This document shows positions 12,729 through 30,948 of a stretch of 32,502 nucleotides of DNA, piece after piece (the stretch's first letter is position 1; every line of letters starts with the position of its first letter). A model generated the notes under the pieces. The model was not told the origin of the DNA, did no database searches, and saw nothing but the letters and a program-made list of their open reading frames with translations. The translations under genes were made by a program, and so were the position numbers. The DNA is taken from positions 1 to 32,502 of IMG/VR virus record IMGVR_UViG_3300047478_000114; one strand, given 5' to 3'. The stretch is from a virus.

Positions 12729-13188
12729 CAGTTATCCCCTTGTCTTCCGGTGGTCTAAACTTGATAGCCTGTATAGCTACATTGAAATACATGTAGTCTC
12801 CATCAGGCCCCCTCTTGGTAAGCACATCGCGTCTCCACAACTCCCTCAGTTCAGCATAGTGCAAGCTACCACGGCTAGTGCATTGCATAAGAATCTCATA
12901 AGTATACACATGATCCTTATTGTCTCTCATGTATTTCGTGAAGATCTTAGAGGAACCCTTATAGGTTCTCCACCCGGATTCCTTCCAGCATTTCGGGTTC
13001 CACTTAGGACTCTGCCGGTTATACTGACGAGTCTTACAACCATACATAGTGATAGCTGTCCAGTATTGCTTCTTGCCTACGTATTGCTTACCTGAAGTCT
13101 CATCACGTATCACGTAGATAAACCCGAAGTACTTAGAGGGGTCCGGTTCAGGTCCTACCCAATGGCTCTGTCCAGCCTTTGTCTTCAA
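12715..13188 (-). CDS. GIY-YIG-like nuclease, shorter paralogue
   Basis: 157 residues. FGFIYVIRDETSGKQYVGKKQYW aligns with the first GIY-YIG-like protein, as do KWNPKCWKESGWRTYKGSS and a Glu in YAELRELWRRDV (likely catalytic acid). It lacks the C-terminal zinc segment of the larger copy. TTG start with GGAG five bases upstream, and it overlaps the 5'-3' exonuclease gene by 41 bases. A homing-type endonuclease inserted next to a replication gene is the simplest reading. Confidence 0.7.
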   Translation of the reverse strand: MKTKAGQSHWVGPEPDPSKYFGFIYVIRDETSGKQYVGKKQYWTAITMYGCKTRQYNRQSPKWNPKCWKESGWRTYKGSSKIFTKYMRDNKDHVYTYEILMQCTSRGSLHYAELRELWRRDVLTKRGPDGDYMYFNVAIQAIKFRPPEDKGITDVCL

Positions 13189-14053
13189 GTGATCTCCTTA
13201 GATACAATAGGTTAGCATTAGTATTTATGAGAGTCATTATGCTCTCATGGAAACCTTCTGTCTCTAGAGACAATCCAATGTCCATCTTTGGGACTGTCTC
13301 TACGTACTTGTTGAATACTACACGATACATCTCTTGCTCACTAGTGAGACCTTTAAGAAGTTTCTCTGCTGTCTTAGGGCCTACTCCTGCAAGTCCAGGG
13401 ATACCATCGGCTACGTCCCCTGTGAGTATCTGAGTATACAAGTTGATTAGCCCCTCGGTCTCTGAGACTATCTGATACTTATCCTTTACGAAATTGTAGT
13501 GGTGTCCAGGGACTTGCAGGAGATCCTTATCAACACTACAGATTATACTGTTAGTATCTTGTGCCATAGCCATGAGGTCATCTGCTTCGAACAGACCGCT
13601 ATAGCATTCGGCAGCATGTTCCAGTGATAGATGATCCTTTAGTATTTCCAAATGAACTGGTCTTCGAGTCTCCTCTCGGTTGTTCTTATAGGGTGGGAAG
13701 AGCTTCTCCCGGAATGATCCATGCCTACTAAGGAAGAACCTTACAGGACCTATGCCATCTGTATACTTCTGGATGTTGTTCTTTAGGGAGTCTATAGATT
13801 CTTCTATATTGTTCAAGGCATTATGAAGAGGTTCCGGTTCGTACCCTATAGTCCGTTTGATGTTAGTGAATCCTTCAGACATAAGAGATGCCATCAGTAC
13901 ATCAGCATCCTTAGCGTATCGCTCCCGTAGTACTATGGGAAGCCCTTCGTATTCATAGTGAATCAAGTAGTGCTTCCCATCAGTTACGGAGGAGGCTTTG
14001 TAGCACAAAATATCTCCGTCAATCAAGCAGATAGGTCTAACTAATTTCTTCAC
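13148..14053 (-). CDS. 5'-3' exonuclease (flap endonuclease family)
   Basis: 301 residues, homologous in layout to T5/T7 5' nucleases. Acidic metal ligands: D12 and D14 in LIDGDILCYKA, EADDLMAMA and CSVDKDLLQ in the middle, then TGDVADGIPGLAGVGPKTAEKLL, the helix-hairpin-helix that grips duplex DNA. Removes RNA primers and flaps. GTG start with GGAGAG upstream, overlapping the previous stop by 17 bases. A perfect palindrome copy encodes SLET near residue 263. Confidence 0.92.
   Translation of the reverse strand: MKKLVRPICLIDGDILCYKASSVTDGKHYLIHYEYEGLPIVLRERYAKDADVLMASLMSEGFTNIKRTIGYEPEPLHNALNNIEESIDSLKNNIQKYTDGIGPVRFFLSRHGSFREKLFPPYKNNREETRRPVHLEILKDHLSLEHAAECYSGLFEADDLMAMAQDTNSIICSVDKDLLQVPGHHYNFVKDKYQIVSETEGLINLYTQILTGDVADGIPGLAGVGPKTAEKLLKGLTSEQEMYRVVFNKYVETVPKMDIGLSLETEGFHESIMTLINTNANLLYLRRSLEDKGWTEPLGRT
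13259..13272. repeat. Dispersed palindrome copy 8 (perfect 14 bp)
   Basis: In the 5'-3' exonuclease gene, other allowed frame, read SLET. Confidence 0.95.
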
Positions 14054-14684
14054 CTTTACTCTCCTTAATATACTGTATAGCTTTTATCATAACCTCCTCA
14101 GAATCTCTGAAATGCCCCAGACCTCTATTGCAATGGTGACAGAGTAATCCACGAACTACTCCTGTCTCATGACAGTGATCTATTACTAAGTTCAAAGTGT
14201 TCCTGTAACCAGTATCTGTAGCTCCACAAATTGCACATGCACCCCCTTGCTTTTCTTCCAAGGCTGAATAGTCTTTCAGGGTCAACCCATACAGATAGCT
14301 AAGTGTGTTTCTCCTATCCCTGGCTTTAGCTAGCACTGGATTATCCTTCCTCCACTTTGACATTATAGTACTGCAACATTTGATACAGTTAAAATCTACT
14401 GTATCACAAGAGTTTTTATTAGGGTAGAACTCATCAAAACTCTTTCTTTCTCTGCAATATGCACATACCTTAGTGCGTGCAGAAATATCTTTTTGTATTT
14501 GTTCAGGAGTCCTCCTACGATTCTCTCTACCCTCTGCTAATCTCTTCTGCCCTCTCCTGTTCTTTTCATCTGCACTAGAACAACCCCTGCATACTGCTCG
14601 CCTTGCACCGGGTCTCTTTGCACCTACTAATCGGAACTCCTCAATTGACTTAACTTCTTTACATCTTGAACATTTTTTATCCAT
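14037..14684 (-). CDS. Recombination endonuclease VII-like HNH nuclease
   Basis: 215 residues from ATG 14684 (GGAG six bases upstream). Three Cys-rich knuckles come first (CSRC...CRGC, CAYC...CIKC), then the endonuclease VII core CAICGATD ... LVIDHCHETGVVRGLLCHHCNRGLGHFRD, with a ββα-metal site. T4 endonuclease VII resolves branched DNA before packaging; with extra N-terminal fingers this copy could also be a free-standing homing nuclease. Confidence 0.85.
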   Translation of the reverse strand: MDKKCSRCKEVKSIEEFRLVGAKRPGARRAVCRGCSSADEKNRRGQKRLAEGRENRRRTPEQIQKDISARTKVCAYCRERKSFDEFYPNKNSCDTVDFNCIKCCSTIMSKWRKDNPVLAKARDRRNTLSYLYGLTLKDYSALEEKQGGACAICGATDTGYRNTLNLVIDHCHETGVVRGLLCHHCNRGLGHFRDSEEVMIKAIQYIKESKGEEIS

Positions 14685-14834
14685 CTTGCTCTCCATCTAC
14701 GTTTGCTTTGAACCTGTTTCTCGCCTCTGTTACAGGTGTTATATCAACATAGACAGCATATGTAAAGTAAGTTTGAAAGAAACGTCAATTAGTTTGGTAG
14801 GCTACTATCCAGTAAGAGTGTAGGTTCTTTTAGC
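14685..14834 (-). promoter_or_regulatory. 150-base intergenic region with a weak promoter candidate
   Basis: Unusually long gap for this genome, upstream of the endonuclease VII gene. On the minus strand TTGACG (14783-14788) is followed after 18 bases by TACATA (14759-14764), a mediocre sigma-70 match. No ORF with a ribosome site and no clear terminator is seen. Confidence 0.3.
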
Positions 14835-15682: not shown

Positions 15683-16171
15683 TCAGAATGGTACGTCTTC
15701 GGAGCCAGATACATCCTCAAAGCCACCACCAGAGAAAGGTACATGCTTGACTACCTGTACCTTCTCTATGTAGCAACCAAGTGTCCACTTCTTGGAAATC
15801 TCCCAGGCTCTAGCGGATAAGATTAGGTTGACTACTGTACCGTTACCAAGAGGTTCAGTGAAGGGCGTCTTGCCATCCGGTCCGACTACTTCAGGGGGCT
15901 TGTTGGGTTGTCCGGTCTTCTTATTGATAGCATCCTTCTTGGGCTTGAAGACATTCTTAATGACTGTCCCATCCTTAGCCTCCTTGTCCTTCACATTGAA
16001 TCCCTCAGCTTTCAACTGGTTTGCAAGGTGATCTTCCAAGTGACAGTCTAATGTCCACCTGTTGTTACCAAAGGCTGTGTCTGGTTTGTCCAAGTGGAAC
16101 CAGTGACCCTCTACATTATTCAACCGGAACTGCACGTACTTCCCTTGCTTGTACTTGTTGTCAATTGCCAT
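15683..16171 (-). CDS. Single-stranded DNA-binding protein (T7 gp2.5-like layout)
   Basis: 162 residues from ATG 16171, AAAGGAG eight bases upstream. An OB-like beta-rich body (YVQFRLNNVEGHWFHL, RWTLDCHLED, GTVVNLILSARAW, KKWTLGCYIEKVQVV) is followed by an acidic tail ending SGSEDVPF with a terminal Phe, the typical interaction tail of phage SSBs. Binds exposed single strands at the fork. It has its own strong promoter, fitting high demand. Confidence 0.85.
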   Translation of the reverse strand: MAIDNKYKQGKYVQFRLNNVEGHWFHLDKPDTAFGNNRWTLDCHLEDHLANQLKAEGFNVKDKEAKDGTVIKNVFKPKKDAINKKTGQPNKPPEVVGPDGKTPFTEPLGNGTVVNLILSARAWEISKKWTLGCYIEKVQVVKHVPFSGGGFEDVSGSEDVPF

Positions 16172-16195
16172 CTTCAGATCTCCTTTGAGTTTGGT

Positions 16196-16215
16196 GCATT
16201 CATTAGGCACCCTTT
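16196..16215 (-). other. Small hairpin in the SSB leader
   Basis: GGTGC ... GCACC with an 8-base loop lies in the untranslated leader 25-45 bases before the SSB start codon. It may protect or tune the message. Confidence 0.35.
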
Positions 16216-16232: not shown

Positions 16233-16261
16233 GTTATATCACTTACCAGGCCCTTAGTCAA
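16233..16261 (-). promoter_or_regulatory. Sigma-70 promoter with extended -10 for the SSB gene
   Basis: TTGACT (16256-16261) and TATAAC (16233-16238) with exactly 17 bases between them, and TG one base upstream of the -10 (TGaTATAAC). An A/T-rich stretch at 16262-16320 lies just upstream of the -35, like an UP element. Transcription would start near 16226, leaving a leader of about 55 bases before the SSB start. Confidence 0.8.
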
Positions 16262-16325
16262 GTAAGAGGCTATCTTAAATAAATACATATAAGTAATACT
16301 ATAAGAAATATACAAGTAGGATACA

Positions 16326-16799
16326 CTAGATCTCCTTATACTTAGCTCTTAGATCCCTGAGTACCTGTCCTATATACTGCTTAGAGAATCCCAACTGTTC
16401 TGCCACCTCACTCTGGTTGTATCCCTGAAGCATCAGCTTTAGGATGTCTCTAGAGACACCAGAAGATTCCTCTAGCATTCTATCCAGTTGCATCTTGGCA
16501 TCCAGACGACCTTCCTCTGAGTACCCATGGGATTCCTCCGCGTAATCCACATGAGATCTATGACCATTCATATTGAGTTCCTTCAGTACATACCGTTGGA
16601 CATACATCTGGAGATACCCATGTATCACAGGGTACAGGAAGGTAGACAATGAGGCTATCTCAGGGTCCCACCTGTCTATCTTCTCGGTAACTATAAGCCA
16701 TGCCTGTGATTCAAGGTCATCCCACTCGACATCCGGATACATCTTATAGATCTTATAGACTACTGATCGTATCAGAGCGTCTACTTGTGTTCCATTCAT
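16326..16799 (-). CDS. Phage-encoded RNA polymerase sigma factor-like protein
   Basis: 157 residues. Region 2-like: PDVEWDDLESQAWLIVTEKIDRWDP then LSTFLYPVIHGYLQMYVQRY (core-binding and -10 recognition layout). Region 4-like helix-turn-helix at the C-terminus: ILKLMLQGYNQSEVAEQLG then FSKQYIGQVLRDLRAKY. Size is near ECF or T4 gp55-type factors. It probably redirects host RNA polymerase to middle or late phage promoters, since no phage RNA polymerase is seen. ATG with GGAG five bases upstream, overlapping the previous stop as ATGA. A palindrome copy encodes VSRD between the two regions. Confidence 0.75.
   Translation of the reverse strand: MNGTQVDALIRSVVYKIYKMYPDVEWDDLESQAWLIVTEKIDRWDPEIASLSTFLYPVIHGYLQMYVQRYVLKELNMNGHRSHVDYAEESHGYSEEGRLDAKMQLDRMLEESSGVSRDILKLMLQGYNQSEVAEQLGFSKQYIGQVLRDLRAKYKEI
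16445..16458. repeat. Dispersed palindrome copy 9 (perfect 14 bp)
   Basis: In the sigma-like gene between regions 2 and 4. Encodes VSRD. Confidence 0.95.
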
Positions 16800-16984
16800 A
16801 GCTTCTCCACGACTACCAGAGTGGTAGGTTTATAGTTATGCATATAGTCACCATGGTGAACAATCACCCGCTCCTCTGTGAATCCTACTACTTGCCCCCT
16901 ATGAAACTTCACTGCTCCATTAGAGTTCCATCCGTGTATCACTTGAGAGCCTAACTGTATCTCCTGATCAAATGCATCTTTCAT
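16796..16984 (-). CDS. Small SH3/KOW-like beta protein, 62 aa
   Basis: ATG follows AGGAGG by five bases. Short beta strands (QLGSQVIHGW, FHRGQVVGFTEERVIVHH) with the Gly-x-Val turn of KOW-like barrels. Its stop overlaps the sigma-like gene, so the two are co-translated. Role unknown. Confidence 0.75.
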   Translation of the reverse strand: MKDAFDQEIQLGSQVIHGWNSNGAVKFHRGQVVGFTEERVIVHHGDYMHNYKPTTLVVVEKL

Positions 16985-16993: not shown

Positions 16994-18919
16994 CTAGTGG
17001 GTCTGGCCCCAATCGTTCCCGATGGAACTCTTAGCTTCTATAGGAACTAGCATGTTGAGTTCCTTACCGATTGCTACTGCCTGTCTCTCACACTCCTTAC
17101 CCCATAAAGAAGCCGTAACGTCTCCAAAAACCTCATATTGGAGTTCGTCATGGTATGCTATGACCTGCTTGACATTAGGTGTAAATACTGCAAACCCATT
17201 ACCTATCCTACGCTTCTCATCAAGTCTAACCATCCTACGCTTCTCATCAAGTCTAACCATCCACTCTTTGAATATTATAGCAGCAGTATGTTGCAACAGG
17301 GTATTCAATAGCTTGTTCTTACCACGTACCTGTAGTGGTCTCTGATCAAATCCTATTAGGTATCCTCTGGAATCAAAGGCTCTTTCGAGATCATTGATAA
17401 GCTGTAAGATCCCTGGGTGTTCCTTGTAGAAATCCTTCTTGAGTCTAGCACCCATGCTCTCAGGCTTACCTAAGGTAGTCGCTAGCTTCTTCGCTCCAGC
17501 TCCATATAGCAATGCATATAGACCATTCTTAGCGAGGTCTCTAGAGACACCCCACAGTTTCGCATTGACGCTATGGAAGTCTCCCGTGAGGATCAGATCA
17601 GCAGTCTTCTGGGCATCCTTATACTTACCCTTAAGTAGGTAATGAGCAAGACACCTAGCTTCAATAGAACTCAGATCAACACCAACCAGCTTACACCCCG
17701 GAGCCACTGTGAATAACGAGCGGATCTCCTTGCCATATGCTGATGAAGGTCTCGGGATATTACATACAGTACCTGAGTGTCTATAGCGACTGGTGGGTGT
17801 ACCACAAGTGAATGCATCTGCTGTCACTCGGCCATCACCACGCTTCAACACGGAAGCTAGAGCACCTGCTGGTGGATCTCCCTTGGATTTCAAGAAGGAT
17901 CTCCTATGGGTAAGCGTGTTGTATTCCGCTATTAGTTTTCCCAAGCCTTCCGGGAGAGATGCATAAGAATCCTCTGTTAGCTTTGGGCTAGTCACCTTGA
18001 ACTCTTTGGTTATCTTATCGTATGTCTTGTTCCATTCTGTAGGAACCCAACCGAGACTCAGGAGAAGCTCTTTGATTTCTATATCGCTATCTGGATTGAG
18101 TGTCTTAATGTCTATCTTAGTGTATGGCCCTCGAACTTTCCCATAGTCTGCCCCGAAGTATTTCTTAGTGGCTTCGTTGTAACTACCATCAGCTTTCCGT
18201 GGGCGACAGAAGGGAGCACAGTGATCCTCATTGTTACTATAAGCTTCCTTAGTTGCCATCTGCTTGCTCTGAGGAACTCCGTGTATCATAAGCTTCTTAG
18301 GAGCTAGCTCTATGATCTTCTGCCGCTTGTCTTGAATCTCCCGGTCAAACATATGCAGCAACTGGATACCTTTCTCGATATCAAATTGTACCCCATTGAT
18401 TACCTGTTGAGCATGTATCATGGCTACTGATTGCTCTAGTTGTAATGCTCTGGCATTCACTTGGTCAAACAGAGGGTGCTTACTGAGATACTCATAGAGT
18501 TCCAAGGTTATCTCTACGTCTGTCTTGCATCTCAAGCCCATCTCTGGAGAGTACTTGGTCCAATCGTCATGAGCTACCTTCTGGACATCCAGCTTGAGTT
18601 CCTTAGCCCAATCCTCTAGACTCATTACGCCTTTCTCTGGGTACAAGATGCAACCTAAGAGCATCGTGTCGATAAGCCTAGCGGAACATGTCCAGTTCGG
18701 GTAGAGTTTCTGGATGGCTCCAAGGTCATACCCACAGATATTGTGCCCGATCAACAGGGTTGCTTTAGATAGTGCTTCAAGCATCTTCTTGATTTCTAAT
18801 GGAGTACATCCGGAGAAGTGTATAGGTAAGCTATCAATATCTATAGCATGTATACAGAAGATCTCAGAGACATCCAGAAGAAGTCCATTCGTCTCAATAT
18901 CCCAAACAAGTGTACTCAT
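16994..18919 (-). CDS. Family A DNA polymerase with 3'-5' exonuclease domain
   Basis: 641 residues, T7-like organisation. Exonuclease ligands: D7 and E9 (VWDIETNG), D65 (GHNICGYD), D134 (CKTDVEITLE). Polymerase motif A VGVDLSSIEAR (D415), motif B R460-DLAK464-NGLY468-ALLYG, motif C YHDELQYE (D591, E592). Tyr468 occupies the Phe762 position. ATG follows GGAGG and overlaps the previous stop as ATGA. Odd: an exact 27-base tandem duplication adds a second MVRLDEKRR (554-562 and 563-571) between motifs B and C. One palindrome copy encodes VSRD directly ahead of motif B. Confidence 0.97.
   Translation of the reverse strand: MSTLVWDIETNGLLLDVSEIFCIHAIDIDSLPIHFSGCTPLEIKKMLEALSKATLLIGHNICGYDLGAIQKLYPNWTCSARLIDTMLLGCILYPEKGVMSLEDWAKELKLDVQKVAHDDWTKYSPEMGLRCKTDVEITLELYEYLSKHPLFDQVNARALQLEQSVAMIHAQQVINGVQFDIEKGIQLLHMFDREIQDKRQKIIELAPKKLMIHGVPQSKQMATKEAYSNNEDHCAPFCRPRKADGSYNEATKKYFGADYGKVRGPYTKIDIKTLNPDSDIEIKELLLSLGWVPTEWNKTYDKITKEFKVTSPKLTEDSYASLPEGLGKLIAEYNTLTHRRSFLKSKGDPPAGALASVLKRGDGRVTADAFTCGTPTSRYRHSGTVCNIPRPSSAYGKEIRSLFTVAPGCKLVGVDLSSIEARCLAHYLLKGKYKDAQKTADLILTGDFHSVNAKLWGVSRDLAKNGLYALLYGAGAKKLATTLGKPESMGARLKKDFYKEHPGILQLINDLERAFDSRGYLIGFDQRPLQVRGKNKLLNTLLQHTAAIIFKEWMVRLDEKRRMVRLDEKRRIGNGFAVFTPNVKQVIAYHDELQYEVFGDVTASLWGKECERQAVAIGKELNMLVPIEAKSSIGNDWGQTH
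17205..17258. repeat. 27-bp exact tandem duplication in the polymerase gene
   Basis: Units 17205-17231 and 17232-17258 are identical, in frame, nine codons each. A shorter ancestral form with one unit would read smoothly through the same helix. Confidence 0.95.
17536..17549. repeat. Dispersed palindrome copy 10 (perfect core)
   Basis: In the DNA polymerase gene; its R-D are the first residues of motif B (R460-D461). Confidence 0.95.
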
Positions 18920-20575: not shown

Positions 20576-22222
20576 CTAGAAGCTAAGTGTTGGTTCAAGA
20601 TAAGCTTGTGTAGTTACATCATAGAATACCTGGAACTTACCTGTTGATCCAAAGTTACGATCCTCAAGTAACACAAAGGTACTCGTGTTGATTTCATCTG
20701 GTGTCAGGTCAGGGTCTTTATTGCGTTCTATGCCCAGCAGGTAGAAGCAGTTCTCCATCATGGATCGAGACCCCCTGAACTGGTAGCTCTGGACTTTCCC
20801 GCCTCTTTCATGCGGCACTCCTGACGTCGGTGCCTTAAGGTGACAAGTGACAATGTAATAGAACCCCATGTCCTGTGCCATACATGCCAGCTCATCAGAC
20901 AACTTCCGAAGTTCTGTCTCAGTCTCTGATGAATTCAAATGGTTTGTCAATTTGGTTATTGGGTCCAGTACAACTGTGGAACAGCCCGACAACGCAACGT
21001 ATCTAATGAACTCCTTAGTGCTCTCCCATGTAGCCTTTCCAAATGCTGGATACATATACAAATAAGGTTCCAAGGAATTGACTGTACGCAGCAGATCAGC
21101 ATCATTATATACCACCCCAGGCTTATGGTAGAACATCCCATCAATCTTACCAGCAACACGCTTTACAGTAGCTACAGGTGGCTCCTCATATTTCAACACA
21201 GCTATCTTCCTGCCAGCTTTAACATCGAATGCCACTAGCTCATTGATGAACTCTGATTTCCCCTGCTTGACACCAGCTCCCACATACATACCCTGACCAG
21301 GATTCCTACCATATGTCATCTTGGTAAGCGTAGGCCAGGGCCACTTGATACCCATCGTAGGTCTTTCAAGTACCTTAGTTAATACATCGGATACCCTAAC
21401 GATAAACTCAGGCTTATACACATTAGCATCAAAGAAAGCACTAACGAACTCAGCCTGTTTCCCACTGGTCAGCATATCGTTAGCATCTTTCTCTGAGAGT
21501 TTCAAGAAGCGAGCTTGTGGAATCAGGTTGGCTATATCCCGAGCCACAGTCTTACCGGCATCATCTTGGTCTACCGATACGAATATCTCCTTGAATCCTT
21601 TAAGATACTCCAAGTTATCCATTAAGGTCTTCACGTTGGCACCAAGAGGTAACGACACGCAAGCAACACGATACTTTTCGAGCATCTGGTATGCACTAAG
21701 AGCATCAAGCTCCCCTTCGGTAATCAAGAGACGCTTGGCTCTCGTAAAGATATCCTGTCCGAATAACTGTAGCTTCTTCCCTTTGGTCTTCTGGCTCGTA
21801 TAGAAGTCTTTAGGTAGCTTACGGATCTTCTGGGCTACTACTAGATTCGTAGAGACTTCCTTCAGGTCATACCGAAGTGTCTCTAGAGACCCATCTGGAA
21901 GCCTCGTGCATGTCATATTGTACTTCTGGAAGACATGCGGTTGGATACTCCTATAGATTTCCCCTATGCTCCCAGTAGGTACAACATCTGGCACCACAAC
22001 TGGAGACTCCAGGGGCTTAAGTACATCCAGAAGGGAAAGTTCACCAGGAAATCTCTCAGCAGTTCCAACATAATTCTCTTTGGCATCTTCATAGTACATC
22101 TCTCCATCTTTATGGTATTCTGTGCGAGTGCAGCAGTACCGCAGGCCATCTCGCATGAGGAACATGTGGTCTCCCTTGGAGTCATGACCCATCTCTTTGC
22201 AGGCACTACAAGGTCTATTCAT
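20576..22222 (-). CDS. Primase-helicase (T7 gp4-like)
   Basis: 548 residues. N-terminal Cys knuckle (CSAC at 5-8, CC at 30-31) for template recognition; TOPRIM fold with E169-G-E171-L-D173 and D218-x-D220; then a DnaB/RecA-type helicase with Walker A GAGVKQGKS (315-323), VVLDPITKL as Walker B, and HLKAPTSG plus QFRGSRSMME downstream. It unwinds DNA and lays primers at the fork with the polymerase at 16994-18919. ATG after GGAGG. One palindrome copy encodes SLET at 112-115. Confidence 0.93.
   Translation of the reverse strand: MNRPCSACKEMGHDSKGDHMFLMRDGLRYCCTRTEYHKDGEMYYEDAKENYVGTAERFPGELSLLDVLKPLESPVVVPDVVPTGSIGEIYRSIQPHVFQKYNMTCTRLPDGSLETLRYDLKEVSTNLVVAQKIRKLPKDFYTSQKTKGKKLQLFGQDIFTRAKRLLITEGELDALSAYQMLEKYRVACVSLPLGANVKTLMDNLEYLKGFKEIFVSVDQDDAGKTVARDIANLIPQARFLKLSEKDANDMLTSGKQAEFVSAFFDANVYKPEFIVRVSDVLTKVLERPTMGIKWPWPTLTKMTYGRNPGQGMYVGAGVKQGKSEFINELVAFDVKAGRKIAVLKYEEPPVATVKRVAGKIDGMFYHKPGVVYNDADLLRTVNSLEPYLYMYPAFGKATWESTKEFIRYVALSGCSTVVLDPITKLTNHLNSSETETELRKLSDELACMAQDMGFYYIVTCHLKAPTSGVPHERGGKVQSYQFRGSRSMMENCFYLLGIERNKDPDLTPDEINTSTFVLLEDRNFGSTGKFQVFYDVTTQAYLEPTLSF
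21878..21891. repeat. Dispersed palindrome copy 13 (perfect core)
   Basis: In the primase-helicase gene, encodes SLET. Confidence 0.95.
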
Positions 22223-22985: not shown

Positions 22986-23555
22986 TCAGATCTCCGGGAA
23001 GACTACCTTAACCGTGCATGGGCTACCAACGAGAACCTTAGCATTCCTTACGGCTCTTACAGCATTAATAATGGAAGTCAAGCAGCCACCCTTAGTTGGC
23101 ACAAAGTCATCCGGAGACATCTGGTAGGGTTCCATAGCCTCCCTTAAATCTCTAATGAGATCTTTTGAGATAACTGAAAGCTTCTGCATAATGGAATCAT
23201 GCAGTACTACAGTATGCATACCGTCTGACCTATGAATTATAGCCATTGGATGTTCCCTTGTCAAGCCCTCTGATATCTCATAGGTGTCAATAAGTTTGTC
23301 GCTAGAGACACTGAATTGGTAGTCCATTTGGTTCTCCTGTTGAATATGTGCTGCTACTTTGAGTTCCAATGAGGAAGGGTCCATAGATAACATGGGACTT
23401 TCCGGTTGAAGTTGGAAGTACTCCGGGGAAGCACTTACTGACTCTCCATTATTACCTATAGCTTGCATACCCCTTGTTGCTTTGTAGCATTTCCCAATAG
23501 TATAATCATAGTTATCATGAGCAACCCTCTTGTACATCCGCCCAGGTATCAGCAT
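22986..23555 (-). CDS. Unknown protein, 189 aa, possibly two products
   Basis: ATG after GAGGGGG. Residues 1-50 form a small beta domain (MYKRVAHDNYDYTIGKCYKATRG). From Met77 on, a second part begins after a good internal AGGAG (five bases before an in-frame ATG at 23327), with VISKDLIRDLREAM and a C-terminal VRAVRNAKVLV helix. A shorter second product from the internal start is possible. A variant palindrome (TGTCGCTAGAGACA) encodes VSSD just after it. Confidence 0.75.
   Translation of the reverse strand: MLIPGRMYKRVAHDNYDYTIGKCYKATRGMQAIGNNGESVSASPEYFQLQPESPMLSMDPSSLELKVAAHIQQENQMDYQFSVSSDKLIDTYEISEGLTREHPMAIIHRSDGMHTVVLHDSIMQKLSVISKDLIRDLREAMEPYQMSPDDFVPTKGGCLTSIINAVRAVRNAKVLVGSPCTVKVVFPEI
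23297..23310. repeat. Dispersed palindrome copy 14 (one mismatch)
   Basis: TGTCGCTAGAGACA, encodes VSSD in the 189-aa gene. Same variant as copy 25. Confidence 0.85.
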
Positions 23556-24313: not shown

Positions 24314-25651
24314 TTATATAGCATTAGAAATGAACTTCTTAGCGACCCTTATCTCCCCTTGATCACCCAACTTGTTTACATATGAAAGCTCAAGGGCTGT
24401 CTCTAGAGACACTTTGTTCTCCAGGAGACCACAGACTACCATAAGACCACGAGGACTCATAGTGAGCGAGAGATCCCCTTGATTCATGAAGGCTTCCCTC
24501 ACAAGGTTAGCGAAGGTAACAGACTTCTTGATAGCTACCTTATCCACCAAAGGATACCGCTTCTCAAGCATGTGGACTTCCCTAGCTTGCTTCATATAGG
24601 ATACATTCTGAGTAATCCCGAAGCGATCCAATGAGCTAATATCCTGCTGCTGTCCTGCTGCATACTGGTCAATACCATCACCAGTTCCTTTAGTATTGTC
24701 TGTGCCTACTATACGGAACTCCATACGGGGATGTATGTGCTTGTCCTTGATAGTTCCAGGTTTCTCATCAAGCATAAGGAACCCATCCTTCTCATAGAGA
24801 CTTTGAAGAGCCATCTGGATACCTGGGGGGAGCTTAAAGATCTCATCAATAGCCGTGAGATATCCACTAGCTACAGCTTGAGGCATAAGACCATCACGCC
24901 ACTCCATGCCTTCCTTAGTAGCCCAGGTGTATCCAAGGAATGCCGAAGCTTCTATGGAATCCTTACCGTTGAACCTGGCGAATGGCTGGCGTAACCAAGC
25001 TGCAAACTGTTGGGTAGCTTTAGTCTTCCCAGATCCTGGGGGACCTACCAGTAAAACATTCTCGTTCATCTGGTATCCCAACCATAATGATTCGAGTACA
25101 TCAGGGTCCCACTGGTACATCTCGTCAATCTTCGGGATATTCTCCCGATGCTCTTCAGCCCAATGGTCATCAGGATACCGGGTGATTACATGATTGATGC
25201 CTGATCGAGGCTTAAGACCCTCAGTGATATCCGTCAGTAATATCTGGAGACTCGTTAAGGAATCTCTGAGAGCTTCCTCGGCTTCCTGTTGCTTCCTTAT
25301 GGCTATCTGTGGATCTACCTTTGGTACATCTACTTGAGCCTCAAAGGCTTTCTTATCGTCTGCCATAATGAACTCAAGAGAAGACTTCTGCTCCTTTGAG
25401 AGTTCTACCTTGGCACCTCCGATGATTTTCATCAGGTCTGCATTTGATACTTTGGACATCTCTGCCTCCGTTAGTTGTTGGAAGTTCTTTCTTTTTGAAT
25501 ACGCACGGAAGTGCCCCGTCTCATTTAGAAGTTCTGTTGCTGATACTGCAAGATAGTACTTACCAGTACAAAAGATTGGACCAGTTTCATAACCAGGGCA
25601 GACATACCAATACAGCTTACCAACCTCTAATGGTATCTCTAATACTTTCAT
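24314..25651 (-). CDS. cobS: CobS/MoxR-like AAA+ ATPase
   Basis: 445 residues. N-terminal 180 residues are phage-specific and partly helical; the AAA+ core then starts: Walker A GPPGSGKT (203-210), Walker B LTAIDEI, and MSPRGLMVVCGLL near the C-terminus as the sensor/lid region. Family knowledge: CobS with CobT inserts cobalt into the corrin ring; MoxR-type relatives act as chaperones with VWA proteins. The start overlaps the CobT-like stop (ATGA) with little Shine-Dalgarno, so it is coupled to that gene. One palindrome copy encodes SLET. Confidence 0.85.
   Translation of the reverse strand: MKVLEIPLEVGKLYWYVCPGYETGPIFCTGKYYLAVSATELLNETGHFRAYSKRKNFQQLTEAEMSKVSNADLMKIIGGAKVELSKEQKSSLEFIMADDKKAFEAQVDVPKVDPQIAIRKQQEAEEALRDSLTSLQILLTDITEGLKPRSGINHVITRYPDDHWAEEHRENIPKIDEMYQWDPDVLESLWLGYQMNENVLLVGPPGSGKTKATQQFAAWLRQPFARFNGKDSIEASAFLGYTWATKEGMEWRDGLMPQAVASGYLTAIDEIFKLPPGIQMALQSLYEKDGFLMLDEKPGTIKDKHIHPRMEFRIVGTDNTKGTGDGIDQYAAGQQQDISSLDRFGITQNVSYMKQAREVHMLEKRYPLVDKVAIKKSVTFANLVREAFMNQGDLSLTMSPRGLMVVCGLLENKVSLETALELSYVNKLGDQGEIRVAKKFISNAI
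24398..24411. repeat. Dispersed palindrome copy 15 (perfect 14 bp)
   Basis: In the CobS-like gene, encodes SLET. Confidence 0.95.
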
Positions 25652-27546
25652 CGCAGTATATTCTGACGCAATAAGTCAATCAGAACCCTCTCAAGTTGAT
25701 CCAGCTCGTTTACCACACGATAATCCTTGTAGTAGTTCTTTACGTATTCTGATTGAATCCCTATGCCTACTATTGACATAATCCTAGAGGCTTCTATAGC
25801 TGCTACAGAGTCCTTAAGAAACCTCCCGCTATCACCACGACCACCTGAGAAAGCAGGACGACCATCTGACAGGACTATCAGCAGCTTATGCTTCTCAGGT
25901 CTCTTAGCGAGCATCTGAGCAGCCTCAGTGACTGCCTCACCATCCGCATTGTCTCCTAGAGAGATCATACCGTGACCATAGCGACCTATCAGTTTGTCTC
26001 TAGAGACATTGTGCTCATCAAAACGCTTCATGATCAGGTGGATTCTCTCGTAACCCGCAGCAGTAAACTGCATCATCATATGGGGTATCTGAAGACTCTG
26101 AAGGACTTCCGATATGGCTATCTGACAGCAACTTGAGACAGTATACTTCGAGCCACCCATAGATCCAGAAGCATCCCCTAAGAGGAACACTGCGCTATCC
26201 TCTTCGATCTTAGAGGAAGCCCTGGTCTTGAAGATCCTCGGTTGACTTTGGGAAGTGTAGAGTCTGCTTATGGACTTAGAGCATATCTTGCCCTGCTTCT
26301 GACCATACAAATAGCCTGTCTGAGACATGACTGTTAGATACTTCTTGATCTTCTTGGTCAAAGAGAATGTCCCAAGAGTCTCCTCAATCCTCCTGACGTA
26401 ACCAGAAGGATATGGAGACTTCCTAGAGATATCCTCGTGCTTTACAGGAGAACACGGAATGTATGGATCAGAGGATTCCGGACGGACATCCTTATTGGAT
26501 GCCTCTTTGATCATTCCGATATCTTTGAGGAAGCTTATAGCTTTACCAGCACCTACTCCGAAGCTATCCGATGGAGTTCCTTCTGGTGACTTTGGAGGAG
26601 GTCCATCAACTTCTTGAGAAGACCCCTGAGCTTGCTGTTCTCGTCCTCCAAGCTCCTCACTTTCTCCTCCTGCTCTTCCAGGATGCTTGACAGGCTGCTG
26701 ATCGCCTCTATCTGATTCTCCCTCTGAACCTTCATCGCCTGGATCAGATCCATCAGGTTCTCCTGTTCCTTCTGGAGATCCTTCACCTTCTCCTCCAGAC
26801 CCCACCTGATCTCCCCTAGAGTCATCATGTTCTTCAGGAGATTCTTGTTGCTCTCCTCCAGATTCATTACCACTGCTTCCTGCTCCAGTAGAGCTGCTGC
26901 TATCGCCCTTACTGTCATCATCTGAACCTTCTCCATTACCTTCTGCATCTTCTTGCACCTCTTTGATTTGTTTTAGGAGTGTCTCTAGAGACTCCTTGTT
27001 GGAAAGCTCAAGCCATTGTTTCTTGATATGCTTGAGTCTCTCGTAATCCTCTTTGATTTCTTCAGGGATTTCTGCATGAGAATACCCTTGAAAATCATTG
27101 CGTAGCTCATTGCCTATACACAGCAATGCACCAGCAGTCTTGTTGATTTTAGAGACATTCTTTACGAGTTTCTGAAGACCTCCAGCCTTATCCAGAGACT
27201 GCCTGTATGCTCTCGACAGGTCTCTGTCTCGACCCTCGTAGGTTCCATTGAGATGGTACTCGGTCCTTACAGACTGCAAGATGGACTTCACTAAGGAATC
27301 CATGGAGCCTTCCTTAGTGGGGACCTCATGGAAGAACCTCATGCCCTTCATCTGCTTAGAGATTTCCCTGTGTAATATCCCGATGTATTCATCATGATGG
27401 TACAGGGAAGGCGTACCGACTACAATAGTACCATCAGGTTTCGAATAAGGTTCTACAGATCCGGAGACCTCTTGGACCTTCACGCCCTCCCCAGATGCTA
27501 ATGCTCTAGCGAATGAGCTGCTTTCTTGTATTCCGAAGATAGACAT
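25648..27546 (-). CDS. cobT: CobT-like protein with acidic linker and VWA domain
   Basis: 632 residues. N-terminal CobT-like helical domain (1-198), a Gly/Ser/Glu/Asp-rich disordered linker (about 199-330), and a C-terminal VWA domain with the MIDAS motif D458-x-S460-x-S462 in GDASGSMGG and a downstream LIVLSDGRPAF. This is the known CobT plan: partner of the AAA+ CobS. ATG follows AGGAGG. Two palindrome copies lie in it. Whether it serves cobalt chelation or a virus-specific chaperone task cannot be told from sequence. Confidence 0.88.
   Translation of the reverse strand: MSIFGIQESSSFARALASGEGVKVQEVSGSVEPYSKPDGTIVVGTPSLYHHDEYIGILHREISKQMKGMRFFHEVPTKEGSMDSLVKSILQSVRTEYHLNGTYEGRDRDLSRAYRQSLDKAGGLQKLVKNVSKINKTAGALLCIGNELRNDFQGYSHAEIPEEIKEDYERLKHIKKQWLELSNKESLETLLKQIKEVQEDAEGNGEGSDDDSKGDSSSSTGAGSSGNESGGEQQESPEEHDDSRGDQVGSGGEGEGSPEGTGEPDGSDPGDEGSEGESDRGDQQPVKHPGRAGGESEELGGREQQAQGSSQEVDGPPPKSPEGTPSDSFGVGAGKAISFLKDIGMIKEASNKDVRPESSDPYIPCSPVKHEDISRKSPYPSGYVRRIEETLGTFSLTKKIKKYLTVMSQTGYLYGQKQGKICSKSISRLYTSQSQPRIFKTRASSKIEEDSAVFLLGDASGSMGGSKYTVSSCCQIAISEVLQSLQIPHMMMQFTAAGYERIHLIMKRFDEHNVSRDKLIGRYGHGMISLGDNADGEAVTEAAQMLAKRPEKHKLLIVLSDGRPAFSGGRGDSGRFLKDSVAAIEASRIMSIVGIGIQSEYVKNYYKDYRVVNELDQLERVLIDLLRQNILR
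25995..26008. repeat. Dispersed palindrome copy 16 (perfect 14 bp)
   Basis: In the VWA domain of the CobT-like gene, encodes VSRD. Confidence 0.95.
26980..26993. repeat. Dispersed palindrome copy 17 (perfect core)
   Basis: In the N-terminal domain of the CobT-like gene, encodes SLET. Confidence 0.95.
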
Positions 27547-27554
27547 CCGACCTC

Positions 27555-27578
27555 CTTATGCCCCCGAAGGGGATACTT
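27555..27578 (-). other. UUCG-type hairpin upstream of the CobT-like gene
   Basis: On the transcribed strand CCCC-TTCG-GGGG (27561-27572) with flanking partial pairing, between the 64-aa gene and the cobT ribosome site. UUCG loops are very stable. No U-run, so more likely an RNA stabiliser or translation modulator than a terminator. Confidence 0.6.
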
Positions 27579-27773
27579 TTAGTCAGTCAAGGCCATCATG
27601 ATGATTGCTTCAAGTGCTGCTTGAGCATTCTCAGATAGATCATCATGTGGTGTACGGTCGATTAAACCCTGACGGAGATCTTCGAGACCTTTAAAAGCAG
27701 CACTGTTGGTATCTCCAGCTTTCTTACCAGATTCCATCAGACTGTCAATAAGACTTAACATAGTTTCTCTCAT
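27579..27773 (-). CDS. Unknown helical protein, 64 aa
   Basis: ATG 27773 with GAGG eight bases upstream. Almost entirely helical with Met-rich start and acidic end. It stands directly upstream of the CobT-like gene. No family recognised. Confidence 0.75.
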   Translation of the reverse strand: MRETMLSLIDSLMESGKKAGDTNSAAFKGLEDLRQGLIDRTPHDDLSENAQAALEAIIMMALTD

Positions 27774-27775
27774 GT

Positions 27776-28270
27776 TTACCACCTCGTTTCTTTAAGTTTT
27801 CTTATAGCTTGGACAGGATTGTCCACTAGACCTAATTGGATATCAGATAAGGTATCCTCAATGGTCTGTTTAACATGTTCATAGCGTCTCCGGATCTCTT
27901 CAGAGAGCTTCATGTTGTGCTCAAGATCCTCAGCATGTCCCGGCTTCTCGAACTGCTTCTTAATAGCTGCTTCGAGTATCCTCTTAGCCTTTATCCCAGA
28001 CTGCTTAATGTCACATTTAGTAGCAATAAGCATCATTTTGATGTCTCTAGAGACAGACTCAAGAAACTCTTCAGACACTATACGATCTTTCTTAGGAATC
28101 ATGTAGTGTCCAAGAGACTTCTTACGGGATTCCTCCTCGGATTTCAGTTGTCTGCCTACAGAACCATCCCAATACAAGTGCCTTGAACGTGCAGAGGAAC
28201 CTAATAGCTCCTTGCAGGTAAGCTCAACAAGCTGCCTGAGACGGCCATCAGCATCTATGGGAATACCCAT
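27776..28270 (-). CDS. Unknown helical protein, 164 aa
   Basis: ATG 28270 overlaps the previous stop as TGATG with GGGGGT six bases upstream. Lys/Glu-rich with several helices; a palindrome copy encodes VSRD near the middle. Probably functions with its neighbours in the same early operon. No domain recognised. Confidence 0.78.
   Translation of the reverse strand: MGIPIDADGRLRQLVELTCKELLGSSARSRHLYWDGSVGRQLKSEEESRKKSLGHYMIPKKDRIVSEEFLESVSRDIKMMLIATKCDIKQSGIKAKRILEAAIKKQFEKPGHAEDLEHNMKLSEEIRRRYEHVKQTIEDTLSDIQLGLVDNPVQAIRKLKETRW
28042..28055. repeat. Dispersed palindrome copy 18 (perfect 14 bp)
   Basis: In the 164-aa gene, encodes VSRD. Confidence 0.95.
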
Positions 28271-28752
28271 CACCAAACCCCCTGCTCCAACTTAAGAAGC
28301 TCTTTAGAGAACTCAGAGATATCCTTGACACCCAAGATGAACTCATCCTTGATATCCTGGAAGTCCCCATCAATGGTAGCAATACGCTCATCATGCTGCT
28401 TTTGAATGAGTGCCAATTGGTTCTTCCATGCGGCTTCTCCAGGATGCACAAAGGCACCTTCGAGAACCTTCTTGCCTCTAGCAGCAAGCTCCTGGGAAAT
28501 GTAATGAGTATCACTATGATGCTTCTTGATCATGCTAGCAGTCGGAGTCATAGCCTTCTGGATCTTCTTGGCAAGACCCTCCTGAATTACCACACGTTCC
28601 TCAGGAGTATACACAGGTTTGTTCCCAAGGTTCTTCTTCTGCTCATTGATATCCGTCTCGACTACGCCACGCTTACACATCGAAAGCCTGTCGAGTCGAG
28701 AGGTAATCAATCTGACCATCTGTTGATGCTGCATGTCACCTATCTTGTACAT
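28270..28752 (-). CDS. Unknown helical protein, 160 aa
   Basis: ATG follows AAGGAGG. Charged, helical throughout; His-rich centre (KKHHSDTHYISQ). Follows the conserved hairpin element at 28790-28843 in transcription order. Function unknown. Confidence 0.78.
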   Translation of the reverse strand: MYKIGDMQHQQMVRLITSRLDRLSMCKRGVVETDINEQKKNLGNKPVYTPEERVVIQEGLAKKIQKAMTPTASMIKKHHSDTHYISQELAARGKKVLEGAFVHPGEAAWKNQLALIQKQHDERIATIDGDFQDIKDEFILGVKDISEFSKELLKLEQGVW

Positions 28753-28789
28753 ATAGACCTCCTTAGGTTACTGTTGTGAGTATCACCAT

Positions 28790-28843
28790 TGATAACTCAG
28801 AGAATACCTTAGACTCAGCACTAAGATATTCATTTAGGTATCA
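28790..28843 (-). promoter_or_regulatory. Conserved intergenic hairpin element 1
   Basis: Stem 28803-28812 with 28821-28830 (10 bp, one G-U), loop TGCTGAGT in the RNA sense. Flanked by TGATACCTAAATGAAT and TTATCAA sequence shared with element 2. Lies between the 58-aa and 160-aa genes. Confidence 0.75.
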
Positions 28844-29017
28844 GCAGGCTGTCTCTAGAGACTCTTCCAGCTTCAAAATATACTTCCTCACATATTCATT
28901 CCGTACCATGTCCTGCAATCCGGAATCCCATTGTACCAGGATGTGATCCGGATGAACCGATATGATCGTACCAGTTTCATTAGAGTGTTTCTCTCGGATT
29001 CTTTGGCCTTCTTTCAT
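28841..29017 (-). CDS. Small KOW-like protein, 58 aa
   Basis: ATG 29017 with AGGAG seven bases upstream, overlapping the previous stop as ATGA; a longer frame is less likely. Strands TGTIISVHPDHILVQWDSG look like a small barrel. The last seven residues (ESLETAC) are contributed largely by a palindrome copy. Confidence 0.7.
   Translation of the reverse strand: MKEGQRIREKHSNETGTIISVHPDHILVQWDSGLQDMVRNEYVRKYILKLEESLETAC
28850..28863. repeat. Dispersed palindrome copy 19 (perfect core)
   Basis: At the 3' end of the 58-aa gene (SLET), abutting hairpin element 1. Confidence 0.95.
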
Positions 29018-29166
29018 CGCAATTCTCCTATCATACCCATCATACAACACACTTGGTTATGCACAGTTGGTTTTCTTTTGTACTGCTTAAGGAGCTTCTT
29101 TAAGCCCCTGCCTGTGGCCTTCAGCTCACGCTTCATGGTTTCCCTAAGAAATTTCCTGTGATTCAT
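29014..29166 (-). CDS. Small basic protein, 50 aa
   Basis: ATG with AAAGGAGG upstream. About 14 Lys/Arg in the first 32 residues (FLRETMKRELKATGRGLKK), then Cys-Cys-Met-Met-Gly-Met. Suggests RNA or DNA binding; unknown. Confidence 0.7.
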   Translation of the reverse strand: MNHRKFLRETMKRELKATGRGLKKLLKQYKRKPTVHNQVCCMMGMIGELR

Positions 29167-29569
29167 CTGGTTCCTCCTTTAAATTAGTTAGCTTCCAGTC
29201 GCTATCGAACTCACAGAGATCTTCTATTAGTTCTTTAGCTTCCTTAAGACCCATACCAAACTCCCCTCGAATCATCTTGATCAATGGGATCTTGTGTGCA
29301 TCTTCATATATGCAGTGCTTACTTATAGCATCTCTGTAATTCTGCTTACCGTCTCTAGAGGGAGCATCAAGAACCATCTGGAGTACACGGGAATGTCTCA
29401 TTGAGAGATCATCATAACTCTTTGTGATATCCCCGAGGATAACCATAAGATGCTTAGATAAATCCGGATAGGATAGCTCACCAGATTCATATAGCTTCAT
29501 CGAATTGGACATCTCAGCGAAGGCTTCAGATGTCTTCTTGATTGGCCCCGTGAATACATTCTGATTCAT
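29144..29569 (-). CDS. Protein with ribosomal L7/L12-like C-terminal motif, 141 aa
   Basis: ATG 29569 follows GAGGAGG. Residues about 105-125 read IKMIRGEFGMGLKEAKELIEDL, close to the helix-turn of the bacterial L7/L12 C-terminal domain (VREITGLGLKEAKDLVE pattern), which binds translation factors. The N-terminal 90 residues are helical and unrelated. It could contact the host ribosome or translation factors; that is inference. An imperfect palindrome copy encodes PSRD. Confidence 0.7.
   Translation of the reverse strand: MNQNVFTGPIKKTSEAFAEMSNSMKLYESGELSYPDLSKHLMVILGDITKSYDDLSMRHSRVLQMVLDAPSRDGKQNYRDAISKHCIYEDAHKIPLIKMIRGEFGMGLKEAKELIEDLCEFDSDWKLTNLKEEPDESQEIS
29350..29363. repeat. Dispersed palindrome copy 20 (half-degenerate)
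   Basis: GTCTCTAGAGGG, in the L7/L12-like gene. Confidence 0.75.
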
Positions 29570-29714
29570 CAGATTCCTCCTCAAAATACGTATGATTCAT
29601 AATGCATACCAACTGTCCGCCCTTGTCTCTCGGGCAGACTTCCCATTGACTTGTACTGAAACAGCAAGAAGAACACCCTTGGCCTTCATCTTCGACTTCA
29701 TTTAGATTTTCCAT
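29526..29714 (-). CDS. Small Cys-rich acidic protein, 62 aa
   Basis: ATG with AAGGAG seven bases upstream; overlaps the next gene by 44 bases. CSSCC at 14-18, C27, C37 and C53 with acidic N-terminus. Metal or disulfide binding likely; role unknown. Confidence 0.7.
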   Translation of the reverse strand: MENLNEVEDEGQGCSSCCFSTSQWEVCPRDKGGQLVCIMNHTYFEEESDESECIHGANQEDI

Positions 29715-29724
29715 ATTGGTCTCC

Positions 29725-29780
29725 TTGATAACTCAGAGAATACCTCAGACTCTACACTAAGGTATTCATTTAGGTATCAA
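29725..29780 (-). promoter_or_regulatory. Conserved intergenic hairpin element 2
   Basis: Inner stem 29739-29748 with 29757-29766 (10 bp, one G-U), loop TGTAGAGT, and an outer TTGATA/TATCAA pairing. Lies between the 75-aa and 62-aa genes. Sequence shared with element 1 over most of its length. Confidence 0.75.
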
Positions 29781-29790
29781 CAGAGTGCTT

Positions 29791-30018
29791 CTAGTAACTG
29801 CTGGTGATTGTTACAGTACCCTCAAAGGGTACAAAGAGACTTTTATTCCAGCAATCATCAAAGTCCCACAGAGTCCCATCACCACTTTCACCGAGCTGTA
29901 TAGAGATACCTGAGAAGCTCTCAGCATCACATCCAGGTCCAGTTGCAAGCACAACAAGACCATTAAGTGTGCTCTCGACTAAGAATGGTGGTTTGAATTG
30001 CTTTCTTTTTGATTCCAT
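29791..30018 (-). CDS. Unknown phage protein, 75 aa
   Basis: ATG with GAGGGA six bases upstream; that ribosome site is formed by the right half of a degenerate palindrome copy. Beta-rich with Gly/Ser/Asp (GPGCDAESFSGISIQLGESGDG). Function unknown. Confidence 0.75.
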   Translation of the reverse strand: MESKRKQFKPPFLVESTLNGLVVLATGPGCDAESFSGISIQLGESGDGTLWDFDDCWNKSLFVPFEGTVTITSSY

Positions 30019-30024
30019 AATGTT

Positions 30025-30038
30025 TCCCTCTAGAGACG
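30025..30038. repeat. Dispersed palindrome copy 21 (half-degenerate)
   Basis: CCCTCTAGAGAC, intergenic; its altered half provides the GAGGG ribosome site of the 75-aa gene. Confidence 0.75.
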
Positions 30039-30048
30039 CTGTGAGGTA

Positions 30049-30285
30049 TCACAGCAGGTTTACTCTTTTGGAACACTGAGCGATACTCTGCTTAGGTTCC
30101 ACCTTTACCCATACTGCTCTGTAGATATCCAGGCAGTCTCTTCGACCTTGCGAAAGGATGGGACATATAGGATCATCAGGATTCACTTTGTCCGCATAAC
30201 AGCCCTCACAGGGTATACTTGTGCCACGTTGCAATTCAAGAGCTTTCCTGTCGAATATTATTTGCTTACCTATGAATGATCTCAT
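30049..30285 (-). CDS. Small Cys-rich protein, 78 aa
   Basis: ATG overlaps the preceding stop as ATGA, with GGGGGT upstream. Cys pattern CEGCYADK, CPIL, DC and QCS resembles other small phage metal-site proteins. Function unknown. Confidence 0.75.
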   Translation of the reverse strand: MRSFIGKQIIFDRKALELQRGTSIPCEGCYADKVNPDDPICPILSQGRRDCLDIYRAVWVKVEPKQSIAQCSKRVNLL

Positions 30286-30437
30286 AGCATTACCCCCTTG
30301 TTCTTCCTGATCAATTGGCTAACTGATTGAAGTCTGTCAGATTCAATAGCCTTCAGATAAGAGCCAGCTTTAATGTCTCTAGAGACTCTCTGGTGTTTTC
30401 TAGCAGGGACCATTTGCTTGCTAATACGCACTATCAT
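30282..30437 (-). CDS. Small basic protein, 51 aa
   Basis: ATG with GGAGGAG four bases upstream, inside the end of the preceding peptide gene. Basic (IVRISKQMVPARKHQRVSRDIKAG). The palindrome copy encodes VSRD at 18-21. Role unknown. Confidence 0.7.
   Translation of the reverse strand: MIVRISKQMVPARKHQRVSRDIKAGSYLKAIESDRLQSVSQLIRKNKGVML
30374..30387. repeat. Dispersed palindrome copy 22 (perfect core)
   Basis: In the 51-aa basic gene, encodes VSRD. Confidence 0.95.
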
Positions 30438-30501: not shown

Positions 30502-30519
30502 AAGATACCTCCTTTGTAG

Positions 30520-30557: not shown

Positions 30558-30560
30558 TTG

Positions 30561-30868: not shown

Positions 30869-30906
30869 AAGATACCTCTTTGGTTGATTGTTTGACCATC
30901 TAAGCA

Positions 30907-30932: not shown

Positions 30933-30948
30933 CATTAGATCTTCAAGG

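Follow-up and report, generated by a model that had tools for sequence, protein, structure and literature searches.

Phages that have a T7-like replication module but no T7 RNA polymerase raise an old question, namely how the timing of their late genes is controlled. In T4, the small late sigma factor gp55 works on the host polymerase; it has no region 4 and needs the clamp and gp33 for its function. Among podoviruses, gp36 of phiEco32 and gp47 of Salmonella phage 7-11 act with the host core enzyme, and according to PMC8948821 both direct middle and late transcription with host polymerase, gp47 through two-element promoters.

Sigma genes placed next to a DNA polymerase gene are found in the Zobellviridae. 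We opened eight regions of this family, six of which were reached through a sigma match. In these six the sigma gene lies beside the polymerase, namely: gp21 of CW02 (Salinivibrio), gp012 of PA11 (Pseudomonas), ORF 36 of 1.235.O (Vibrio), and the genes of the oyster-derived T2S1, T2S2 and KZY1. The proteins have 159–167 aa; the annotation is RNA polymerase sigma factor for five of them and hypothetical for the sixth. Each gene comes after the helicase position and is separated from the polymerase by one small ORF at most. In CW02, T2S1 and T2S2 this polymerase neighbour carries the annotation DNA polymerase, and in PA11 it is noted as putative; in KZY1 it is a polymerase by tblastn, and in Vibrio phage 1.235.O it is annotated only as RNase H-like. 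At a threshold of E 1, tblastn with CW02 gp21 gives 57 records, among them its own.

The Cobavirus paper (PMC6775973) states that SIO1 lacks an RNA polymerase, and the text of this paper does not contain the term ‘sigma factor’. The helicase-polymerase gap of SIO1 gives no HMM match in three frames (39,000 of 39,898 bases searched). VpV262 has no annotated RNA polymerase and no sigma HMM match at or below E 0.1. Since SIO1 and VpV262 lack a detectable sigma factor, such phages can do without one, which counts against the model favoured below. By title and start of abstract, the matches listed for open-licence PubMed Central include no paper on the phage group described here or on a Zobellviridae sigma.

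The phage and its leftward arm

We analyzed a stretch of viral DNA of 32,502 nucleotides, referred to here as the window. It comes from a short-tailed phage for which we detected no RNA polymerase gene, and it covers almost only the leftward arm, with two rightward ORFs at its left end. The replication set is T7-like: a family A polymerase, a primase-helicase, a gp2.5-like SSB and an exonuclease. The features concerned are:

1438–1471, no strand: 15-pair, terminator-like hairpin between the rightward ORF 633–1427 and the leftward arm (hairpin search)
13148–14053, minus strand: 5'-3' exonuclease, downstream of SSB (phrog_107, E 5.2e-51)
15683–16210, minus strand: gp2.5-like single-stranded DNA binding protein, SSB (phrog_112, E 6.1e-9)
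16326–16799, minus strand: phage sigma factor gene, 157 aa (Pfam Sigma70_r2 above cut-off, seven-member profile against solved sigma factors, predicted fold)
16796–16984, minus strand: 62-aa ORF between the polymerase and sigma genes (ORF call)
16994–18919, minus strand: family A DNA polymerase, upstream of the sigma gene (phrog_17, E 5.6e-108)
20576–22222, minus strand: primase-helicase (phrog_239, E 8.4e-127)

As in the Zobellviridae, the sigma gene is next to the family A polymerase, the two being separated by no more than one small ORF. The order differs: the Zobellviridae gene lies between helicase and polymerase, whereas the window gene comes after the polymerase and before SSB.

The window also encodes an RNA ligase, a ribonucleotide reductase, and an AAA-type ATPase adjoining a CobT-like protein. 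The last two (24314–27546, minus strand), of which the ATPase belongs to a ‘porphyrin biosynthesis’ PHROG, occur as a pair in the related contigs G001, G002 and G005 too, and are possibly a MoxR/VWA pair rather than cobalamin genes. In a phage protein at 29144–29584 (minus strand), Pfam finds the C-terminal domain of ribosomal L7/L12 above cut-off (E 3.2e-6), and a 75-nt direct repeat (28789–28863 and 29725–29799) is 85% identical over copies 936 bases apart. Within the DNA polymerase gene, a 27-bp tandem duplication (17214–17268) repeats MVRLDEKRR near the C-terminus; it is absent in the polymerases of L002 and L003 and is either a real insertion or an assembly error. Rfam and tRNA scans of the window gave 0 and 0 matches.

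The group is far from phage records, with a polymerase identity of at most about 33% among the best 40 of 2866 records, and the terminase of G001 names no CW02-type phage among the best 15 of 224 records. No host was found, because none of 48 pattern matches of the polymerase profile to bacterial genome contigs was confirmed.

G001, the closest relative, is probably complete, since it has a 123-base direct terminal repeat at 57,585 bases. Its replication genes make up a leftward arm, and its rightward arm encodes a head-tail adaptor, the terminase, and major head and tail proteins. In those relatives whose late arm is covered, the late genes point to the right, against the direction of the sigma arm. 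The rightward late genes to which the original prediction refers are present in relatives, but the window itself has only its two rightward ORFs. In another contig, L172 (~250–1300), the terminase large-subunit gene has, by eye, an apparent intein-like insertion directly after the ATP-binding loop.

The absence of a phage RNA polymerase, which the original prediction had noted, agrees with scans for the single-subunit family PF00940, which were mostly on fragments: none of eight records, window included, has a match (run without a positive control), and neither has any of six related records in a second run (window not among them) where the control phage CRP-118 matched at E 4.2e-88. The single-subunit RNA polymerase of the T7-like Autographiviridae is thus not found in this group. 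A late protein of 2,076–2,537 aa was considered as an N4-type virion polymerase and set aside, its sole match being an internal virion protein (E 3.1e-4).

A two-domain sigma factor beside the DNA polymerase

The ORF at 16326–16799 runs from ATG to stop on the minus strand and has 157 codons, in agreement with the original prediction, which had described it as sigma-like with regions 2 and 4. Its two domains are:

16593–16778, minus strand: sigma region 2 segment, residues 8–69 (Pfam match, relatives, fold overlay)
16344–16445, minus strand: region 4-like helix-turn-helix (HTH), residues 119–152 (weak Pfam match, family profile, relative L282 above cut-off)

The HMM comparison with sigma-70 regions 2 and 4 that had been proposed supports this description. 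For residues 8–69 the Pfam Sigma70_r2 score is 30.1 bits (E 4.1e-7; cut-off 24), and two PHROG sigma-factor families match the protein at E 1.4e-8 and 5.9e-5. Region 4 is below the Pfam cut-off in the window protein alone (Sigma70_r4, E 0.045; Sigma70_ECF, E 0.0016, residues 91–154) but clear in its relatives. The C-terminal part also matches HTH_3 (E 3.7e-4) and KORA (E 0.029), again below cut-off. When the single sequence is compared with PDB chains, the best match is an HTH repeat protein (E 0.018) and the first sigma factor appears at 0.11. Regions 1.1 and 3 are absent by size (157 aa): the region 2 match stops at residue 69 and the next confident helix begins at about residue 95.

Direct searches with the window sigma confirmed no relative among viral contigs and gave one weak record only (E 0.02) among 50,697 phages. 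Since these scans found none, relatives were reached through searches with the DNA polymerase and the primase-helicase. An iterated sigma profile was then applied to the ORFs of 148 records (the window among them) and gave 10 matches at E 1e-3 or better. Without the window's own copy and duplicate contigs these amount to seven distinct lineages, namely: the window, G001 (L068), G002 (L077), G003 (L069), G005 (L006), G006 (L003/L073) and G007 (L002). G004/L070 is the same phage as G003 (99.8% over 10.7 kb), and G011, a longer contig of the G003 lineage that also has the sigma gene, is not counted apart. The remaining fetched records, with more distant polymerases or helicases and often short, have no sigma match at E 1e-3.

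An eighth lineage, L282, comes from a scan with a palindrome (see below) that used neither sigma nor polymerase; it is the one stretch with such a sigma gene among 63 new ones. G008, G009 and G010, which have several copies of the palindrome, and G012, with one copy found, have no sigma match; all four are fragments.

Sigma70_r2 matches every one of the seven aligned members (the window protein among them) at E 0.1 or better, and Sigma70_r4 matches four of the seven at the same level (best 3.8e-7). In the L282 protein the situation is reversed, with Sigma70_r4_2 at 30.2 bits against a cut-off of 25.7 and region 2 just below its cut-off (22.4 against 24). The seven-member profile aligns with solved sigma factors over both domains, namely: 8x6g_H (S. 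aureus SigB complex, 6.2e-11), 1l0o_C (2.8e-8), 8hkc_E (RpoH, 6.7e-7) and 4cxf_A (CnrH, 6e-6). It should be noted that the top of this list is a non-sigma HTH repeat protein, which scores through summed short repeats, and that KorA-domain and NarL/LuxR-type regulators match in the HTH only, at about E 5.8e-5 to 1e-3. In 7/7 members region 2 comes before region 4, and the linker between them varies in length.

The gene order polymerase, sigma, SSB is present in all eight distinct sigma-bearing contigs, window included, with the exonuclease next. Besides the sigma gene, zero to two small ORFs lie between polymerase and SSB; in L282 there are two larger genes, read as ligase-like by eye, so that its order is polymerase, sigma, these two genes, SSB, exonuclease. 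Pairwise identity of the sigma proteins is 51% for the window and G001, 95% for G002 and G003, and 15–34% for all other pairs. Thus, the position of the gene is kept while its sequence diverges, since the order holds in 8/8 contigs at identities down to 15%.

At the position that corresponds to sigma70 Y430 in our alignment, all seven members have an aromatic residue, F or Y. The neighbouring tryptophan pair of sigma70 region 2.3 is absent in all seven (a single W in G005), as in ECF sigma factors. Because this pair is absent, DNA melting would need a strict -10 element; no such element was found, which counts against the model favoured below.

An AlphaFold2 model from the seven-row alignment is all helical (mean pLDDT 76.9, pTM 0.47), with residues 75–94 poorly defined. 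Model residues 1–71 overlay sigma70 378–447 at 1.9 Å over 69 residues with Z 9.8, so the structural match to region 2, without which the original prediction was to be given up, is present. Full-length overlays reach sigma70 residue 601 with an rmsd above 20 Å. Foldseek gives nothing at E 0.001 or below against the PDB (best 9.2e-3) and four matches at that level against viral models, the first being an RpoE-like phage protein (E 1.1e-4). A Z near 10 is not decisive for a helical model, and the case for sigma identity is carried by the sequence profile rather than by such values. Taken together, these data allow us to call the window gene a true sigma-type gene with confidence. The protein is a small two-domain (sigma2 and sigma4) phage sigma factor of ECF size, with a short linker, and belongs to the sigma-70 type by its own region 2 and, at the level of the family, by region 4.

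Relation to described sigma factors

A profile of the six Zobellviridae sigma factors was run on the ORFs of 12 records. The best match beyond CW02 is the sigma of G002/G003 (E 7.6e-5), and the window protein is matched at E 0.051. In the reverse direction, the profile of the window family finds CW02 gp21 at 0.0069. The hhalign probability is 29%. These profile comparisons suggest a weak but reciprocal kinship at the family level. Polymerase-adjacent sigma factors are already annotated in the Zobellviridae, and the window sigma is a very divergent branch of a known protein type.

Like phiEco32 gp36 and 7-11 gp47, the window protein would be a podovirus sigma factor working with the host core enzyme. 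With gp36 no specific sequence kinship was detected (hhalign probability 1%, E 0.055 over 40 columns); the published promoter motifs of phiEco32 and 7-11 also differ from those found here. Unlike T4 gp55, which lacks region 4, the window protein is not confined to region 2, since an HTH resembling region 4 is present. Both domains of bacterial ECF and SigB-type sigma factors (8x6g, 4cxf) align with the family profile; the window sigma differs from them in being a phage gene and very divergent.

Proposed function

The analysis gives a two-domain architecture, a place beside the polymerase and no detected T7-type polymerase. The window protein is probably a factor that redirects host polymerase. 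In the model that we favour, the sigma factor would be made from the leftward replication operon, directly after the DNA polymerase, and would replace the host sigma on the host core RNA polymerase. Region 2 and the region 4-like HTH would then direct the host enzyme to phage promoters later in infection, and the targets would most likely include the rightward structural operon outside the window. That a two-domain phage sigma takes over the host core polymerase for later phage genes appears reasonably likely to us, with core binding, promoter choice and timing as the parts that we infer. The fixed place of a sigma gene next to the DNA polymerase, seen in eight divergent contigs and also in several Zobellviridae, suggests that these phages borrow the host polymerase through a sigma of their own. 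The genes are small and expressible alone, and are thus open to a direct in vitro test.

The C-terminus of the window protein resembles HTH repressors as much as region 4 (HTH_3 3.7e-4, KORA 0.029, Sigma70_r4 0.045). It might therefore have lost transcription start, so that sigma2 holds the host core polymerase while the HTH regulates or silences, and host or early transcription is shut off. We regard this as unlikely, given that region 4 is clearly of sigma type in the relatives and that the order of region 2 and region 4 is the same in 7/7 members.

Promoters ahead of SSB and the late genes

Three elements in the window are relevant to the promoters:

16233–16261, minus strand: SSB promoter, TTGACT-N17-TATAAC with TGA before the -10 element, 23 bases from the called SSB start (promoter scan)
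14738–14766, minus strand: TTTACA-N17-TATAAC, also of the SSB promoter class, preceding the endonuclease VII-like gene 14037–14696 (pattern scan)
16290–16303, plus strand: AT-rich element TAAGTAATACTATA in the gap between SSB and sigma genes, resembling one ahead of the G001 late operon (weak statistics)

The original prediction had placed the sigma gene beside an SSB promoter, and this promoter is present as sequence (TTGACT-17-TATAAC, 16261–16233, minus strand). The corresponding elements before SSB are TTGACA-17-TATAAC in G001 and TTGACA-17-TACTAT in G002 and G003; none is listed for G005, G006, G007 and L282. The pattern TT[GT]AC[AT]-N13..15-TGNTATAA[CT] occurs twice in the window (SSB and 14766–14738) and twice in G001 (SSB and the late operon), and all four sites are in gaps ahead of genes. 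The Markov-3 expectation of 0.00 for this pattern is only descriptive, because the pattern was drawn from those very sites. It has no match in six other contigs, G002–G007.

In leave-one-out analysis, a matrix made without the G001 sites gives the SSB and late-operon sites of G001 the first and second places in that contig. When the window sites are omitted, the window site at 14738 ranks first and the SSB site is outside the top two, and without the G002 site, the SSB site of G002 is second. These rankings support a putative promoter class shared by SSB and the G001 late operon. The class looks like host sigma-70 with an extended -10 element, for which the sigma factor that reads it is not separable at the level of DNA sequence.

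The original prediction also expected a separate promoter class ahead of the late genes. Such a class is not established by the present data: the promoter of the G001 late operon is of sigma-70 type (11/12), and a clean class switch is argued against because it belongs to the same class as that of SSB. Among the four late starts examined (G001, G002, G003 and G005), only that of G001 has a strong promoter; no sigma-70-like promoter of 10/12 or better is listed for the late-operon gaps of G002, G003 and G005.

These elements raise the alternative of a working sigma without any class switch, which would serve TTGACW-N14-TGRTATAAC before SSB and the G001 late operon and back up or replace the host sigma, for example when the latter is scarce or blocked. 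The two sites each in window and G001, always in gaps before genes, and the first and second rank of the G001 sites under a matrix built without them speak for this alternative. The same elements fit host sigma-70 directly, however, so that a phage sigma is not needed for SSB-class promoters. Moreover, contigs G002–G007 keep the sigma gene but have no match to the pattern, and the leave-out results are weaker for the SSB sites of the window and G002. We consider this alternative possible, though on the doubtful side. Only the sigma-70-like promoter class is reported here as real sequence; host and phage sigma cannot be told apart by it.

An AT-rich element, TAAGTA(T)ATACTATA, was noticed by eye upstream of the four late starts and is found again in the window, between the SSB and sigma genes. 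In controls, the G002-G005 pair has p 0.01–0.05 and G003-G005 0.06–0.26, and the pairs G001-G002, G001-G003, G001-G005, G002-window and G005-window are not significant. The G001-window match has p 0.005 or below, but it concerns different loci. With modest or no statistical support in these controls, the element is a weakly supported candidate for an alternative late promoter. A MAFFT alignment of the four late-upstream regions shows no clear block common to all. The region upstream of the first late gene of G005 (37943–38158) has many CTTAAG repeats and is perhaps an origin or operator region.

We also compared upstream regions pairwise within each contig, following an idea in PMC4331800. No promoter-like family joining early and late genes was found; the comparison yields overlaps between neighbouring regions, repeats, pairs that contain the palindrome, and a few pairs that score slightly higher than 5 shuffles. 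In G006, a block of ~24 bases lies ~100 bases ahead of the leftward early genes ending at 38854 and 39526 (minus strand), with 26/30 identities against 24 for the best shuffle (n = 5), and is a possible early promoter or operator. A perfect 12/12 sigma-70 consensus promoter (23264–23236, minus strand) is located within ORF 22986–23555.

A 12-bp palindrome throughout the genome

The palindrome GTCTCTAGAGAC has 20 exact copies in the window and 28 with at most two mismatches, against a mean of 3.0 and a largest value of 8 in 100 shuffles. Copies lie, for example, at 520, 2235, 3621, 5039, 6535, 9010, 13260, 16446 and 17537, and further on at 19286, 20561, 21879 and from 24399 to 32096; the copy at 16446–16457 encodes VSRD, just ahead of the sigma HTH. 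Lineage variants are found in G001–G007 and L282, with window and G001 identical. Seven related records have 7–46 copies of these variants, compared to at most 4 in ten Markov-2 sequences each.

Most copies are within genes, where the two frames without a stop codon are both used (window, 10 and 6; G001, 10 and 10; G005, 19 and 20), and the third frame, which would contain TAG, is never used. The palindrome is denser in the early arm in 5/5 two-arm records, from 0.88 vs. 0.23 per kb in G001 to 0.78 vs. 0.53 in G006, the weakest case. When nine gene pairs of window and G001 are compared, only the CobT-like gene and perhaps the polymerase have copies at nearly the same positions. The two-frame use, the early-arm density and the mostly unmatched positions point to a function at the DNA level, possibly as stoperator-like roadblocks or as partition or condensation sites. 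No phage paper, by title, is among the literature matches listed for the palindrome string.

A further reading of the window protein is that of an HTH protein that binds this palindrome and is sigma-like merely by descent. Of the 66 called window genes, 29 were scanned (18 against PHROGs only), and among these the window protein alone gave an HTH match, which includes a weak KorA-type HTH. Against this, window and G001 share an identical palindrome but their putative recognition helices differ at most positions, and we regard the reading as very improbable. No palindrome-binding protein was recognised among the same 29 genes.

The sigma takeover favoured above could also be one half of a two-part early-to-late switch, in which a protein on the palindromes (GTCTCTAGAGAC and variants) would block the early arm while the sigma factor moves host polymerase to the other arm. 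If true, it would join stoperator-like roadblocks with a sigma takeover, a combination that is not known from any described phage; we hold such a switch to be quite unlikely. A candidate binder is the protein encoded at 30964–31821 (minus strand), beside the densest palindrome cluster of G001. It is conserved, with homologues in G001 and G005, has no Pfam or PHROG match, and lies near the start of the early arm.
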